A DNA stretch of 64,000 bases from Saksenaea vasiformis B4078 (taxonomy: Eukaryota; Mucoromycota; Mucoromycetes; Mucorales; Saksenaeaceae), in NCBI GenBank assembly GCA_000697055.1, contig JNDT01002392.1, positions 1-64,000 on the forward strand, read 5' to 3'. Shown in pieces: positions 1 through 7,547 of the stretch. The translations under genes were made by a program, and so were the position numbers. The notes below the pieces were generated by a model. It was not told the DNA's origin, did no database searches, and was given only the letters and a program-made list of their open reading frames with translations. The first letter of the stretch is position 1. Each line of letters opens with the position of its first letter.

Positions 1-344
1 GTGCCTAACAGGAAGCTAGATGACAGCTCTTTAACTGTCTGTGAGAACTTGTTCTTGCACTGTTTGTGGCGGCCGTGATGGCCTCTGAAGCGCTGCTGGA
101 CGAGAGTCAATGTTACATCCAGATCGAATGTACGCCTCCAGTATTCGTCGCATGTTTTTTCCAGCATTCACGTCTCGATTCCACACCTGTTGGGACTATG
201 AGAAGACATTCTATAATATATTAAGAACCTACAAGTCGGCGTTCTCCATCGGTATCCGAATGTCAATGTTGGCACATCCGTACCGGATACAATATTGACT
301 GCCACGATTGCAAACCTATCGTCAAGTTAGTACATGATACAATT

Positions 345-1345
345 TCAGGCTAAGTTGATAGTACCGTAAGTTGTTCTTGCGGGACATACTGAAGAATAGC
401 AGAGCACATTATTCTCATTGTCCACGCAACATTGTCTTCTTCGTTTATCAGTTGCAAGTCGTAGGTATTTTTTTCTATCAATTTCATGAGCGTCAGATGA
501 ACACATACTGAAGACCATGTATACGAACTTGTGTCTACACCTCTGCCCGGCCTGACGAACTTCGACCGTCTCATTGTCGCATATACTGCACACTTTGCTT
601 TTTCGGTATTCGTCAATACAGACAACTAGTGCCTTTTGGGACAGGATTTGGCGGAAACCCTAAGGATGCGATTTAGCAACAGTATGTTTAGATTTGTACA
701 TACCTTGATTGGTAAGGGCGCCTGGCCATGCATCGGCCGTAAATCTGTGTCGCCAAACGCTACTATCGCCGGCCTAGTATCTTGTTGCTGGAACGCCCTA
801 ATCCACTGTCTTTCTCTCTTGCGCACTCTTTTCTTATCCTTATGTACCCATTGCAATGGCTATACCAATTGTTACAAACTATGCCACAACCTTTCATGAC
901 CTTACAATGTCTGCCGCTCTGTATTTCCCAATTAATTTGTCTGCGATACAATGTAGTGCCATCTTCCGTTGAGCAGCAAGGCGCTCCCGAGTCTCTCTGT
1001 GGCGATAGCTAGAATTGAACTCTTTTATTCTATTTCCATATATCATTAGCTTGAACAAAATTACAGCCGCTTAAGTACCTGCACGATTCTTGACTCAGAG
1101 TTCTGATATAAGCAGCAAACTCTGGTAAACTGCCAACTTTGGGTGGGGTATCACTCAGCCGTGTGTACACATCTTGGATCTCTGCATCCTCTCTGTTCCG
1201 AAGTTCTTGTTGCCTGGCCCATGCAAACATCGACGCCACCCTAGATTGATACATCATTAGGTTTAGAGATACAAACAGTATCTACCACTTACTAATAGTG
1301 CCTATTGGTAACGGAGTACTGTACTCTTGTCCAAGGCTTGGCCCA
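345..1345 (-). pseudogene. 5'-truncated Fanzor-type (TnpB-like) nuclease fragment
   Basis: Fanzors are eukaryotic homologues of the RNA-guided nuclease TnpB. Here the C-terminal half can be spliced through exons 1240-1079, 1008-906, 859-704, 659-541 and 474 onward, all joined in frame with GT-AG introns. Seen: a QYSVTNRH segment near 1306-1330 that parallels QYYSMTG in the neighbouring full-length Fanzor; a basic linker; PAIVAFGD; then the RuvC-II motif IDEYRKSKVCSIC, which holds the catalytic Glu and the first CxxC of the zinc ribbon. I find no RuvC-I DPG upstream: the sequence before about 1340 reads as a different plus-strand ORF. The last exon has no convincing NRDxNA RuvC-III motif, although there are Cys residues. 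The fragment is therefore judged 5'-truncated and inactive. Family assignment is good; the exact limits are approximate. Confidence 0.6.
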
Positions 1346-1384
1346 GTACTAAGGCGCAATCTGGAAGGTGAGACAGATCTTCAC

Positions 1385-1711
1385 AATCAACTGTACCTGA
1401 CGTCTTTAATAGCACACCTCAAGTGTCAGAGAACCTTGACACTGAAGAAACTGGTCATAACGAACAGACTGCAATCGAATCTTTGCAAGAAGACGACTCC
1501 ATAGCACAGCAAGACGAAGGTAAGATGTACACTTGTAGCCTCCAACAGCTCTTTAATTTGTTTTTCAGATTTTCCGATCCCATCTACTGTGCCAGAGATG
1601 ACCATCGCTCTCACTCGGACTGCATCTGTAGGTACCAAAAGGAGCAAAGGAAAAAGAACCAATTATGCAGCTGAAAAGAAGTCGAAGAAACGCACCACTA
1701 GAAGAGATTAA
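1385..1711 (+). CDS. 3' end of an unrecognised spliced gene
   Basis: An open frame rich in acidic and polar residues runs to a good donor at 1520 and rejoins in frame at 1569 after a pyrimidine-rich acceptor. It then ends in a strongly basic tail (KRSKGKRTNYAAEKKSKKR) and a TAA at 1709-1711. An AATAAA lies just downstream near 1742. The upstream exons are not resolved: a stop lies just before 1385, and a splice around 1320-1380 is possible. The basic tail could be a nuclear localisation signal or a DNA/RNA-binding tail. It sits head-to-head with the broken edge of the Fanzor fragment, which suggests an insertion or rearrangement boundary. No family was recognised. Confidence 0.3.
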
Positions 1712-1871
1712 GATAGAATCTTGTACTAGTTTCTGAAGTTAAATAAAGAATAGTCAGCCAATAATGAAAACTATCATATCCAAAAGCAGCCGTCTATTAC
1801 GGGAGTTGGGTCCAATAGAAAATTCGCTACCATTATGTTAAATCCAATCAGATACTGTTGTTGTCCCAAAG

Positions 1872-2130
1872 AGTCACTGAAGGTTCCTGATGGTTACGAA
1901 AATGCATGTTAGTGGATCCTGTAGGATCCTTCAGGACACCAAATAGTTATATACTGGATACCGCTGGTTCCTAAAGGTTGCTATATGACTAGGTTTCCGT
2001 AGGATACTGAGGGTTCCTGTTGGTTACTTGATTCCTCAATGACTATTTTTTTTGTTAGAGAAAAATAGTCATTGAGGAACCGAAGTCAATAAGGAACCAC
2101 TGGGAACCACGAGGAACCGCTTCCCGTAGT
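1872..2130. repeat. Block of degenerate GGTTCC repeats in direct and inverted orientation
   Basis: The motif GGTTCCT...GGTTAC occurs at 1882-1897 and again at 2012-2027 inside two 26-bp direct repeats (1872-1897 and 2002-2027) that match at 21 of 26 positions by eye. To the right of a central hairpin the motif appears inverted as GGAACC four times between 2075 and 2117. The block begins about 150 bp beyond the stop codon of the full-length Fanzor gene, on its 3' side. It is not coding. Confidence 0.6.
2032..2079. other. 19-bp perfect inverted repeat, strong hairpin
   Basis: Positions 2032-2050 are the exact reverse complement of 2061-2079, with a 10-base loop. In TnpB and Fanzor loci the guide (omega/f) RNA comes from the 3' end of the gene and the element's right end and is highly structured. 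A hairpin in this position is therefore a candidate for the end of the element or part of its guide RNA. That role is inference; a plain palindromic transposon end is the alternative. Confidence 0.75.
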
Positions 2131-2280
2131 GCAAGTATCACGAGCGGAGTTACACATTAACTGTTTAGCATTATGTCCATAAATCATCAAGCAAGGACTT
2201 ACCGAAACGAATTCTGAAGCAAAAAATTAGTGTCACTGATAAGAATTTTCGTCAAAGATCATAGTACGTACTGTAGAAAT

Positions 2281-5214
2281 CTAAACCCTTGCGGGTCCCG
2301 GATTCACAGCGATGATACGGTTAGGGCGACGGAAAGCGCTTCGCCTTCCACCTCCGTCCCAAATAGACTGTGCAATGTAAAACGTATTTTTGCTGGCATT
2401 GACGTCGCGATTCCACAACATTCCACAGTTTTTACAGTCTTGAATGCCGTGGTGGTTGACGTTGTCAGCCGTAGTCATATTCTGCATGTTCCTTGTTTTA
2501 CATTGATGGCAAACCTATCGATCACGTCAGACAAAAACATTACATGGCTGATAAGTATTTGCCTGTGAGGTATAGTATTCGTCAATTTTCAAAACCAACG
2601 CTTCACCACGGGCTTCTCGTCTCTTCAAGCTTCCCCATAACTTGTTAACTGCTGCTTTGCAATGTCCCTTATAGCAACTGTTGTTCCCAAACGTGCCCGC
2701 CCCAAAGACAAGTAAAGGCATTCTTCCATCGTTGCATGGATTTGACTTTGCTGGTTTCCATTTCCTTTTGCGGCACGTCATATTGACCGTGGAGCGTACA
2801 GCAGATGTCGGCTGCTCTGGAATCCTGTCATTATACAATAGTTAACAACTTTGACTTAAATATTCAATGATTTTTCATGTCCCACCTGCCACTATTTTTC
2901 TTCTTGTATTTCTTGCGTTGCTCACGGTTCTTTTTCCTTTTTTTCCTGTTTGTACTTCGATGCCTCCGTTTCCGACGGTTGTATTTTTTGCCTCTGTTTA
3001 TCAGTATATTTGCTAGTTCTTCCATTACTCTTTGTTTTCCTTGGTGATTACGGAATCGTCTTTCCCCGTCTTGTGGTCCATAGAAATCGAAGATTTGGTA
3101 TTTGTGGATGAAGAAATAATCAACTCTTTCATGATACCGGTCAACGTCCGACGTTTTCCCTGTTGGGAAGTTCGTCTCAATGACCTCAATACCGACCAGC
3201 TTTTTCTGTTTTTGCAGCTGCCTGTTTCTTTGCGGCGAGCCAGTCATGCTGTAGTACTGTTTCGAAGGACAACTGCGGACTTCATGTTCTGTCGCTCCCG
3301 CTCCGTAGGACGCGGTAAACAGTTCACTCACACCAGGATCTATCGCGCAAACGAGGTAGTATCTGTCGATTTCCTCCGTGGTAAAGTCCTCCAATTCGAG
3401 CTCAATTGCCTTGGGCTTTGCACTGCAAGCAAATTGGAACACTACACTAAATCCGTCTGTGGGTATCTAGGTGAATATACCGCAGTTCATGCTAAATGTA
3501 ATGCTTGGCCCTGTACCATTGTCGCTTGATAATGTCCTGACCTGCGAAAACCGTATTTATCCAAGTCGAACACTACATTGAACAATTGCAAATTCCCGTC
3601 ATAGTCGTCGGTAGTGCTTCGGATATGAAGTAGTGACTTCATTGCCTTTGCGTTAAGTATAACGAAGCGAAAGTGAAAAGAAGGTTGCGGAGCTAAAGAG
3701 AATAACCTAGGCAAAGTCTCCGAGTCCTCGTCGTTGCTTTGCTGGTGTTCCTGCTCATATTCCTTCAATATAGCATGCAACACCGGGATGCACGTTCCAG
3801 GTTGTTCCGATAAGTAATCGAGTGTACATGCGCTGGGCATGAATGGCGCAAGAAAGTCGCGGACTTGAACGACTGCTAAGAACAACTCGAGGGAGATATG
3901 CCCCATGCTTGTTGGCCAACTTGGCTCACCATTAGCGAGGTCCTCGTACATATAGTCGTAAGCTATTTGACTGGCAGATGACTTTGATAAGTCCTACAAC
4001 GGAAAATAAGAATGTCAACGCGCCAGATAATTGACACCTGTTGAGCTTACTGGAACGAGCTTTTGCAATTTGTGTATGATAAAGCTACAAACTCTTTGTT
4101 GAAAATTCTCGACCACGTCATTGGTGTATGTTTCCTGTAAAGTGGTGCAAGCAGCCGCGAGGGCATCGCTGTAACCGCTAAATTCATTACGCGGGAAGAC
4201 GACACCAGGATGGCGCTGACGAAATTCATTCCAGTAGCGAAGTACGTCCTCGGGCATGTGTGAATTATCGTTCGAAACCGTGACATCCATGACTAGCTGA
4301 GCGATAGAATACCAAAAGGATTGTGAGTAAACGTATGTAGGTATTGTTGCCTGTCCATATATAATAGTGTACGCGTTGACATATAACTGCGCGCGTATAA
4401 TTACGTTTCGGATAAATGTGGACATTGCTTGTATCCGACTTTGTAAATTATCTGCAAATTCTGGGCGTGCAATGCTTGAAAGTGGTAACTTCCGCGAAAA
4501 ACGCTCGTGGTTGTTGCCAAGACTTGTTTTCAGAGTTTCTCTTATGGATGGCTTATGGCCTGGACACTGAGCAGAACGTGCAGATGCGTGTGCCGGTGAT
4601 CCACAAGATGTACAATTGCTCTGCAGACAAAGGGGATTGGCATTTGCTGCATCCCTAGTCAAACGTCCTTTTTTCTTCCTTCTTGTTTCTTCTTCGGTGC
4701 TGGTTCGTGTCGCCTTACGTTTGCCACCTAGATCACGGCGCAAAACCAATGAGAAAGTCAGAATCTATTGATAAAACTACTAACCACGCTTACTCGGTTC
4801 ATTGAGGGGACATTTTTTGTTCGTCCTCATCTTGTGGCCCGCTTGGCCACAATCGCGGCATACAACTTTGACTTTATTTATATGCATATACTTTACAGTC
4901 TGATGATATACCTTGATTGACAGCTTCCTCTTGTTTTTGTTTCTTTTCTGCTTTCTTAAACGCGGTGTATAGTAATGGTGGATACACGAGGACGCTTGCT
5001 GAAATGAACAAAGCTGAGAGCAGTTCGATGAAGTCGTACAAGTCTGGAAGCGTTATGGTTAATAAAAGAAAAAAGGAAGGAGTATAGATGAAAAAAGAAA
5101 AAAAGATTGTCTTCTCAATTTTGGTCCGGTTTTGCTTTTGACAACATTTCGTATCTCACATTCAGTCAGCTTCTCGTTAGGAGCAGAACAGTAGAACGAA
5201 TGTCAATTGCTCAT
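2281..5214 (-). CDS. Fanzor-type RNA-guided nuclease (TnpB-like), eight exons
   Basis: Fanzors cut DNA guided by an RNA made from their own 3' region. Exons, in transcription order: 5214-5160, 5043-4912, 4871-4794, 4727-4051, 3993-3517, 3466-2886, 2824-2563, 2514-2281. They total 2,496 nt, exactly 832 codons. Two CCHC knuckles with the same CX2CX4HX7C spacing lie near residues 67-83 and 125-145. The hallmark TDGFSVVF is near residue 477. Catalytic residues of the RuvC fold are all present: Asp516 in IDPGVSELF, Glu749 in IDEYYTSQ and Asp791 in WNRDVNASKN. The zinc ribbon is C756/C759 and C781/C784. Intron 7 would start with GC instead of GT. With the start chosen at 5214, codon 4 is TGA (5203-5205). 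Either the true start lies elsewhere or the gene has one early nonsense change. Length fits the larger Fanzor1-like group. Family call is firm; activity is unknown. Confidence 0.85.
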
Positions 5215-5413: not shown

Positions 5414-6609
5414 TTGAATTGGTTTCTCCTAATACCCGCTTTTAACTCTGACAAGACGTCTTCAATAACATCGCAAAGAGCGCCTGATACGTCAAGTGAT
5501 GTCTGTCGTCCACCTCTATCCGGTAACTTCATCACCTTCGGTTTATCAATTCAACTACTGACCTTCTGCGCTTCCTTTTCGTTAAGCCTCCACTCTTTGG
5601 ATGCAGCACTTATTCCAGTTTCTTCAAGGGTGTATCTATTACTCCAGCCTCAGAAATGGTGCCTAATACAGTAACCTTGACTCCCTTTCCAGTTGGTATG
5701 GTGCCTTTCGCTGCAGTTCTGTTCGCAGAACGGCCAAAATTTCTTTGAGTATGCAGGTTAAAATCTGCATCATCGATAAAGACGCAGTTCTCAGTGAAGT
5801 CCAAGACTTGCATCGTTTCTCATTGAGCAACTTTATCCTTTCGCAAAGTTATCACCCCGTCATAATTCCTTGCTGCAGGAACCTCTTTCAAGTTTTCTAA
5901 CGTTACATGACAGTTATTGACTAAGTCTTCAGACGTTTCATATAAGATCCTTTGTATATCAGTCAGGATAGAGCGGGATTTCTGTCGATGTAATCTGCAA
6001 GAAACTGGGAGTGAACTTCAGTCAGCTTCCCATAACATCTAGTACGAGCCTTTCTCTGAACGCCAGGTAGAACTGTTCTTGATCCCGGTTGTATGTTTCG
6101 ATACAATGTTGAGCCGTTCGGACATCTATGCCTGTGATAAGCGTTGCTTTCTTTGCTGTTCGTCATTCTTCAATCACCAAATCAAACAGCTTTTTGATTT
6201 GCTGTGGGATGTATTTTCTACAGGAAGCTCTCGTTCTAGCTTTTTGCTCACGCTACACGTCTAGTCTATCTGGAAAGCGGACAAAGCCTGTTAAGCTTTC
6301 ATCTCTGTTATCATCAGCAAATATTGAGGCATCTGTCAATGTACGCATTCGCATAAGGTTGGTGTCTACATGACTACCTCCTTCCCGCCATCTTTCAGTT
6401 AAAACGAATGGGTTTGAACGAGACAGTTCTGCCCACTCGTTTTGTATATCATCCGCAGACATATCAACGTCGAATGAGGTGACATTATTTACATTCGATG
6501 GAGCGCCATCAGCCTCCATGTGTTCACGTAAAGCGTTCATATCGAAGAAGTAAAAGATGAGTTTGCTACCACCCTTTTCTTTGCAAATGGCGGAGTTCAT
6601 GCAACGCAA
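5414..6609 (-). pseudogene. Decayed Tc1/mariner-type transposase
   Basis: Pieces of a DDE transposase lie in order on the minus strand but in different frames and with several stops. A helix-turn-helix-like segment (IKKLFDLVIEE, then RTAQHCIETYNRD) is near 6060-6210. A linker region follows (KLTEVHSQFLADYIDRN, then TLENLKEVPAARN). The catalytic core (FIDDADFNLHTQRNFGRS, then VTVLGTISEAGVID) is at 5630-5790. The order matches mariner-like transposases common in Mucorales. Downstream the frame is lost. I did not find terminal inverted repeats. The ORF at 6253-6609 may be the original N-terminal part. Confidence 0.65.
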
Positions 6610-6659
6610 AATTCATTAGCAGCCGGCGCAAAGTCACACGCAAAATCCTGCAGCCAACC

Positions 6660-7547
6660 ATGGGGTACATGTTACGAGACGCCCTAATGGCTGACCCACT
6701 CCCCAGCAATGAGCAAGGCTCATTGCAATGGACGCTCATGAAAACCGAAAGAGACTGTGAATTCTACCGTACAGCATACCATTACTGTCTTCAGGAACTC
6801 GACGAACGCCTTTCGCAACAAGTGTCTAGCCCAGGACGCCCAGCATCCCCTACTCCCAGCACAGACGTATCCACTAGTGCCACCGTATCTAACCACAGTA
6901 TGTCCCTGTTGAGACCAACTGAAAAGTATACCACTATACCGCCATCGCCACCTGCTTCGCCACCGCAACCAAAGACAGCCGTACCCATATCCCAAGAAGA
7001 CCCAACACCTCGGCCATGTCATGACACGAATATGCAACGTCAAACTCAGGCACCCAAACAAAAAGAACATGCAACCCGCATCTTCACACAACCTGATCCA
7101 TCACAGCAAGGTTTCGATTACATTTATCTACCATGCAAGCGCCGCCTTCAGCGCAAAACGCTGCGATCAGCTTTGAAATCTACCGGTAGCAACACTTCTC
7201 GTGTACTTGACATTGCATACATGGTACGACACATTGTTGACATCCTTCTTCACCGACAATATATTCCTGAGGCAACCCACCACCTACAAACGGCAGGCAT
7301 AGAATGTGTGCCTAACTTCAACCCATTGGACCCATCCCATCTCTGCAACCCCAAATACACGAGTTTGCCTTGAAACGAGAAGACAAAACTTGCCTACCAA
7401 ATCCACAACGCACGCTGTCTTCGCGTCTTTGACTCCTGTCCGCCACGCGTAAGTGGAGCAATTGGATACTCTTTCCTGGCTCGTCAATGGATTACCCAAA
7501 AGGACTTCGATTCCTATGACTTTATTGATGATATTTCCCCCTCCTGA
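6660..7547 (+). pseudogene. Frameshifted repeat-associated protein of unknown function
   Basis: An open frame of 237 codons starts at 6660 and stops at about 7373. The protein continues in the next frame (ALKREDKTCL) and then a third (YQIHNARCLRVFDSC to SFLARQWITQKDFDSYDF), ending at TGA 7545-7547. Two frameshifts near 7370 and 7395 therefore break one ancestral ORF of roughly 295 codons. Its first half is Pro/Ser/Thr/Gln rich; its second half has a conserved-looking basic block near residues 155-235. From memory this resembles an ORF found in many copies in Mucorales genomes, perhaps ORF1 of a retroelement, but that is unverified. The 3' flank is T-rich. Confidence 0.4.

Follow-up and report, generated by a model that had tools for sequence, protein, structure and literature searches.

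The window analysed here is the first 64 kb of contig C651, in a genome of 38.7 Mb and 666 contigs. Its minus strand carries, at positions 4887–2281, a gene with the features of Fanzor1, within the remains of a repeated element (Table 1). Fanzors are eukaryotic RNA-guided nucleases. The gene model was obtained by aligning ten copies, that of the window and nine others with 87–93% DNA identity over the main aligned piece, and its six exons comprise 775 codons including the stop. The ATG at 4887, a short distance ahead of the first CCHC knuckle, is in frame in all nine copies that cover this point, the window among them, whereas the tenth copy, L031, falls short of it. The initial annotation had placed the start at 5214, where the ATG opens a frame of Met-Ser-Asn-stop with no GT ahead of the stop. 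A non-exhaustive search found no exon set giving the frame of exactly 832 codons that had been proposed. An upstream exon with an ATG near 5041 was rejected, as the window has TTG and L035 has ATA at this place, and the length of an A-run, and hence the frame, varies among copies. The exon 1 donor at 4793 is GT in the window and GC in the other nine copies; an alternative donor GT at 4787 is common to all ten and keeps the frame. The intron before exon 6 is of the GC-AG type in the window, and in the other copies GT-AG (six) or GC-AG (two), with one not covered.

Table 1 Features of the Fanzor1 element and its surroundings in the window
Feature	Position	Strand	Remarks
Unrelated repeat	1322..2131	.	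Abuts and truncates the element; 96.4% identical to a copy in C493, ends exactly at 2131
3' region	2132..2268	-	90–96% mean identity among close copies; may hold the remainder of the guide RNA; cut off at 2132
RNA core	2269..2316	-	Two adjacent hairpins overlapping the stop and the codons before it; candidate scaffold of the guide RNA, degraded in this copy
Exon 6	2281..2514	-	C4 zinc ribbon, WNRD (RuvC-III), stop TAG
Exon 5	2563..2824	-	End of RuvC-II, alternative Glu (DEYYTSQ)
Exon 4	2886..3491	-	TDG motif and RuvC-I Asp (DPG)
In-frame TAG, codon 416	3467..3469	-	Beside a 3-nt in-frame loss; CAG in the nine other copies
Intron 3 of the initial annotation	3467..3516	-	GT donor private to the window copy
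Family intron 3	3492..3541	-	50 nt, GT...AG; GT and AG in ten of ten copies
Exon 3	3542..3993	-	Family gene model
Exon 2	4051..4727	-	Second CCHC knuckle; REC region begins here (domain named by analogy)
Exon 1	4794..4887	-	ATG at 4887 (MHINKVKVVCRDCG...), first CCHC knuckle; start in frame in 9/9 covering copies
Transposase remnant, frame-broken	5603..6612	-	Upstream of the Fanzor, same strand; weakly DDE-like
Right terminal region	6602..6649	+	Position mapped from L032

The minus strand bears every motif listed in the initial annotation, in the order given there: two CCHC knuckles, TDGFSVVF, the RuvC-I Asp, a Glu, the C4 ribbon and the RuvC-III Asp. The knuckles, C-x2-C-x4-H-x7-C, are at residues 10 and 70 of the spliced product, DPG is at 459, Glu 692 lies six residues ahead of the first Cys of the C4 ribbon, and the Asp of WNRD is residue 734. 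A profile built from five paralogues without the window copy matched SpuFz1 (E = 1.2e-9) and GtFz1 (E = 1.3e-9), which upholds the assignment to the Fanzors, and the protein of copy L034 matched SpuFz1 with E = 2.6e-4. PF07282 was matched by five of five family members, and by exon 6 of the window with E = 3.5e-5, slightly under the gathering score. The NCBIfam TnpB models matched L034 in the ribbon only, far under their cut-offs. The Fanzor1 pattern D-X(125,275)-[TS][TS]-XX-[C4]-X(5,50)-RD, as it stands in the available text of PMC3627910, is found as D459, TSQV right before the C4 ribbon, and GMLWN followed by RD. The Fanzor1 hallmarks in the excerpted text of PMC10711439 are present too: DPG at RuvC-I (459), the alternative Glu, which precedes the zinc finger by six residues (E692-YYTSQV-C), and TDG, which is at residue 419 in the window and 420 in L032 and is replaced by TDR in L034. 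The search RegEx in the same excerpts, written for mining TnpB-like proteins, has other spacings: 120–160 residues from DPG to E, compared to 230 here, and 12–18 residues between the CxxC pairs, compared to 21. The match to the Fanzor1 motifs and profile is far beyond chance and, as judged from the sequence, the window gene is a Fanzor1 that encodes the catalytic residues.

The closest comparison among characterised proteins is provided by SpuFz1 and GtFz1, two Fanzor1s of solved structure (8gkh and 9cer), both with profile E-values of about 1e-9. SpuFz1 aligns with the window family at TDG, the RuvC-I Asp, the alternative Glu at its six-residue distance from the C4 ribbon, WNRD and a GRPxxF tail, and the significant alignment with GtFz1 covers the ribbon and WNR. 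Identity is low to both, however, SpuFz1 has DPN in place of DPG, the N-terminal CCHC knuckles of the window family lie outside the alignments to either protein, and the window gene has multiple exons. Fanzor1s of Mucor circinelloides and other Mucoromycotina resemble the present set in that one genome holds several families in several transposon types, and copies of MCi-2 that are otherwise near-identical differ in their 5' parts (Bao and Jurka 2013, PMC3627910, available text). The Mucorales elements described there are MuDR-like or unclassified, whereas the window has a weakly DDE_3-like remnant, a comparison by description only. PpFz1 of Parasitella parasitica is likewise a Mucorales Fanzor1; according to the excerpted text of PMC11423790, it is RNA-guided and has an FRI insertion and the smallest known scaffold. 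The profile search, run up to E = 10, returned no PDB chain named PpFz1. Searching 5.8 billion proteins yielded a single relative among 4357 candidates, the hypothetical protein EC973_007737 (P0001) of Apophysomyces ossiformis (Mucorales), with 44% identity over 60% of the protein; it is a 428-residue gene model that ends ahead of the C-terminal part. Its best matches in the genome of the window are 60% identical, so that it must have been annotated in a different genome. The initial annotation spoke of a Mucoromycote, which fits this sole relative.

Body and truncation of the repeated element

Similarity to the close copies spans the window from 2132 to at most 6645–6654, so that the element is a repeated unit of about 4.5 kb with a decayed, weakly DDE-like ORF. 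The upstream ORF set is frame-broken in all seven copies examined. PF13358 (DDE_3) matched one of four fragments from related copies (L036, E = 0.0012, below the gathering score), no transposase model matched the other three, and the window fragment 5610–5819 gave E = 0.18. These matches make the assignment of the remnant to a transposase a weak one; it may be Tc1/mariner-like. The outer ends of L032 form TIR-like arms of 48 nt that are 71% complementary; in L034 and L035, the other two of the three copies searched, such arms are absent. Inspection by eye of the right ends of eight copies and of C439, and of both ends of L032, L034 and L035, revealed no target-site duplication. On the plus strand, a 270-aa open frame without a Pfam match (6561–7373) extends over the right end of the element and its flank.

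The window copy lacks the 3' end of the element, which is cut at the junction 2131/2132 by a repeat whose copy in C493 is part of a 3.1-kb locus without similarity to the Fanzor element. Five copies run beyond the corresponding point (L031, L032, L034, L035 and L038), L041 is truncated near 2149, and L033, L036 and L037 end short of the point. A long terminal hairpin is present in L034, and the window keeps one of its arms. The GGTTCC-rich repeat ending at 2131 contains a perfect 19-bp inverted repeat with a 10-nt loop (2032–2079). Farther out, the minus strand at 150–620 may hold what is left of another Fanzor-like C-terminus of greater divergence, in two pieces that do not share a frame, IDEYRKSKVCSIC (at 614) and WNRDVNAGKNMRR (at 183); this stretch gave no tblastn match with other Fanzors at E 1e-4, and the ORF 345–659 had no Pfam match.

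A stop codon under the family intron

Intron 3 had initially been placed at 3516–3467, which does not agree with the other copies: the donor GT of this intron occurs in one of ten copies, and the nine others have AT. Splicing of the window copy at the sites common to the family, 3541–3492, leaves exactly one internal stop, the TAG at codon 416, just ahead of TDG, the motif that in Fanzor1s belongs to the WED domain (PMC10711439, excerpted text). In the close copies, the interrupted stretch reads F-T-N-Q-x-S-T-D-[GR], and F414 and D421 are invariant in a five-sequence alignment. Among 12 loci that are more distant, 11 retain F-[TR]-N-Q at this place, and in L014 a stop takes the position of this Gln. 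Since L014 carries this stop, L023 reads FKAV and L027 reads FTNS, the stretch is conserved, not invariant. The equivalent residues are FEGSITTDG in SpuFz1, inside the significant match, and FDNAVVTDG in GtFz1, in an aligned piece that is not significant by itself.

The sequence of window positions 1–3006 recurs at the ends of contigs C62 (99.9% identity) and C409 (99.2%), as the result of either a recent duplication or an assembly-graph break within the Fanzor element. Both contigs break at 3006, and therefore they offer no second sequence to confirm the TAG, which could also be an assembly error.

The window copy might still be coding if its intron 3 had slid by 25 nt, with GT at 3516 as the donor and AG from the TAG codon as the acceptor, so that the stop was skipped. 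The product would then be a full-length Fanzor in which RSGHYQATM replaces SMNCGIFT. Such a product is possible because the window copy, alone among the ten, has acquired the new GT donor, and because the total remains 775 codons with either intron, here without an internal stop and with TDG retained. However, the slid intron deletes a stretch that is kept in most paralogues, the conserved intron 3 sites are still present in the window copy, and the damage to this copy extends to its RNA core and element end. We consider continued coding by this route improbable, and prefer the reading in which the family intron is used and the TAG interrupts the protein.

A two-hairpin RNA core at the 3' end of the Fanzor genes

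An element of 54 nt with two hairpins, which lay outside the claims of the initial annotation, covers the last codons and the stop of Fanzors that are as little as 45% identical. Behind the stops, nucleotide conservation is strong between families whose proteins are 45–49% identical. The RNA core was modelled from 19 of 24 loci, leaving out the window, L012, L016, L020 and L031 (near duplicates of others). RNAalifold predicted two adjacent hairpins with nine pairs, six of which have compensatory changes; paired cells amount to 96.8% and the covariation score to 0.508, both calculated on the alignment from which the structure was derived. The 3'-shuffled control scored 0.212 ± 0.026, and none of 500 shuffles reached 0.508, a count that, among related sequences, is not a probability. 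Six slid versions scored 0.088–0.166. Further pair types are not in excess (10, compared to 12.0 in the shuffled control; 496 of 500 shuffles), and the number of pairs changed on both sides, six, was matched in 40 of 500 shuffles. The arms of stem 1 form 3.6 of 4 pairs in cis and 3.1 between families, a modest difference drawn from eight distinct arm pairs. The stem-1 solutions CCGC/GCGG, CCGT/ACGG, CCAC/GTGG and CCGG/CCGG correspond to Ala-Ala, Val-Thr, Thr-Val and Gly-Pro at two coding residues. As the variants encode differing residue pairs, they make sense as pairing and not as protein. A long-range pairing of ACCG with TTACGGT was rejected, with 72% of cells paired and no compensatory changes, compared to 97% and two for the stem-1 hairpin.

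A 19-nt signature of the 3' part, written from the same loci and not designed for the L017/L021 subfamily, had 57 exact matches in the genome, against none for the reversed control. Fifty-four of them follow a same-strand C-terminal Fanzor match by no more than 102 nt. The remaining three lie close to contig ends (C37, C121 and C609), at distances of up to 95 nt. No C-terminal Fanzor on the opposite strand was found within 200 nt of any of the 57. Conversely, the exact signature is present on 54 of the 150 C-terminal matches listed. The altered core of the window is not among the 57 matches: stem 1 reads TCGC/CCGG, which breaks pair 8–16, and TTACGG is changed to CTACAG. The covariance model gave it 45.7 bits and the other complete matches, except for the window's duplicates, 60.7–73.6 bits. 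This comparison is skewed, since most of those other sequences, or near-identical ones, went into the model and that of the window did not.

Single-sequence folding of the 3' region gave z-scores of −0.08 for the window, −1.16 for L034 and −2.53 for L034 with its terminal hairpin, and folding energy alone is therefore weak evidence. The alignment of this region from seven close copies has one compensatory pair among 58 and an unfavourable covariation term; it is uninformative because the copies have diverged too little. No Rfam family was found in the window, and the 3' region had no match in a plasmid collection, which is uninformative for a fungus. A description of the two-hairpin core was not found in the searched Fanzor and omega-RNA literature, which included excerpted texts and little subscription literature. 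Five loci of one subfamily (L013, L015, L016, L022 and L025) share an in-frame stop two codons ahead of the RNA core; that the sequence is kept past this stop fits selection on RNA. In L011, L013, L019 and others, CGGTWAG occurs twice after the Fanzor stop, about 70–80 nt apart, and resembles 5' splice sites around a very short exon.

The omega-RNAs of SpuFz1 and GtFz1 are located at the 3' ends of their genes, and that of GtFz1 overlaps the 17 C-terminal residues (PMC10432273, available text). From this shared position we infer that the core is probably part of a guide RNA and its best candidate scaffold. Alternatively, the two hairpins could act at the DNA level, as an element of the transposon, or as an mRNA signal for splicing, translation or the formation of 3' ends. 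The splice-site-like block CGGTWAG that follows the core, with its recurrence in several loci, is in line with such a function, whereas the location over the stop at the 3' end of a nuclease gene, as in GtFz1, points to the scaffold and renders the alternative unlikely.

Decayed and open members of the Fanzor1 family

The genome contains at least 151 matches to one Fanzor exon (150 of 254 candidates scored) and at least 150 to the C-terminal exon (150 of 372 candidates scored), numbers that are lower bounds on fragments and not gene counts. High copy number has a precedent in Cyanidioschyzon merolae, with about 150 copies of one element (PMC3627910, available text). Two of the ten aligned copies, L032 and L034, are open from end to end, and L036 is open for 589 codons, up to the contig end; the other seven, including that of the window, have a stop or a frameshift. 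The dN/dS ratio, calculated from pairs that include broken copies and the nearly identical pairs L031/L033 and L037/L038, is 0.16–0.27 in 24 of 24 pairs between the clades {window, L031, L032, L033} and {L034–L038, L041}. It is 0.13–0.33 within the former (6 pairs) and 0.31–1.08 within the latter (15 pairs). These ranges indicate that the protein was under selection and that the constraint has been weaker recently. The purifying selection and the open copies are, as far as the sequences tell, properties of the family and not of the window copy. Purifying selection would also be expected if the gene were a domesticated host gene and not a transposon passenger; given that the ten near copies, seven of them broken, have element ends in common and occur in several different flanks, such an origin is extremely improbable, and the gene is best viewed as a transposon passenger.

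The right end of the element is more widespread than the Fanzor subfamily of the window, with 43 matching pieces. In L044 (contig C436), the transposase part (84%, 579 bp) and the right end (92%, 40 bp) resemble those of the window, while blastn at E 1e-5 detected no similarity to the window Fanzor, and the Fanzor exon is 51% identical in protein. The combination of a like vehicle with an unlike Fanzor suggests that the two have been exchanged. Comparable mosaics were described by Bao and Jurka (PMC3627910, available text). Near-identical right ends lie a few kilobases from Fanzors of other lineages in C436 (L044), in C380 near 75366 and in C439 near 62287; the Fanzors of C436 and C380 are 51% and 47% identical to the window exon and that of C439 is 37–40% identical to P0001, which suggests module exchange.

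Based on the gene model, the element boundaries and the RNA core, the following explanation can be proposed. The segment from 2132 to about 6647 would be a degenerate copy of a DNA transposon carrying a Fanzor1, and intact members would encode a nuclease of 774–775 residues. The remnant upstream was presumably once part of the enzyme that moved the element. The nuclease would be guided by an RNA from the 3' end of the Fanzor transcript that begins with the two-hairpin core, and the guide, by analogy to SpuFz1, would be supplied by the DNA beyond the element end. Because the stop precedes TDG, the core is altered and the 3' end is missing, the window copy most likely has neither a working nuclease nor a guide, and we regard the reading as a degenerate copy as very probable. 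From the initial description of a near-complete Fanzor gene with all RuvC residues, the Fanzor1 identity and the encoded residues stand, but the gene is not intact: it has the TAG, and the copy has also lost the 3' end of the element. Its candidacy as an active system is not supported, given the nonsense codon and the adjoining 3-nt loss, under an intron common to ten of ten copies, the lost element end and the altered RNA core. The locus should not go forward as an active copy.

We tentatively suggest, as a possibility with somewhat less than even chances, that one type of scaffold has persisted while divergent Fanzor1 lineages proliferated in this genome. The core would be fixed by pairing, with C-terminal residues covarying as an RNA stem (Ala-Ala, Val-Thr, Gly-Pro, Thr-Val), modules of Fanzor and RNA would be swapped between near-identical vehicles, and guides may act in trans across lineages. 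The interest lies in the family and the RNA core; for the window copy, the assignment to the family is right, but the copy itself is most likely dead. One genome with many related Fanzors, both open and decayed, and with a common candidate RNA core makes it possible to test directly whether scaffolds are cross-compatible and what selection keeps.
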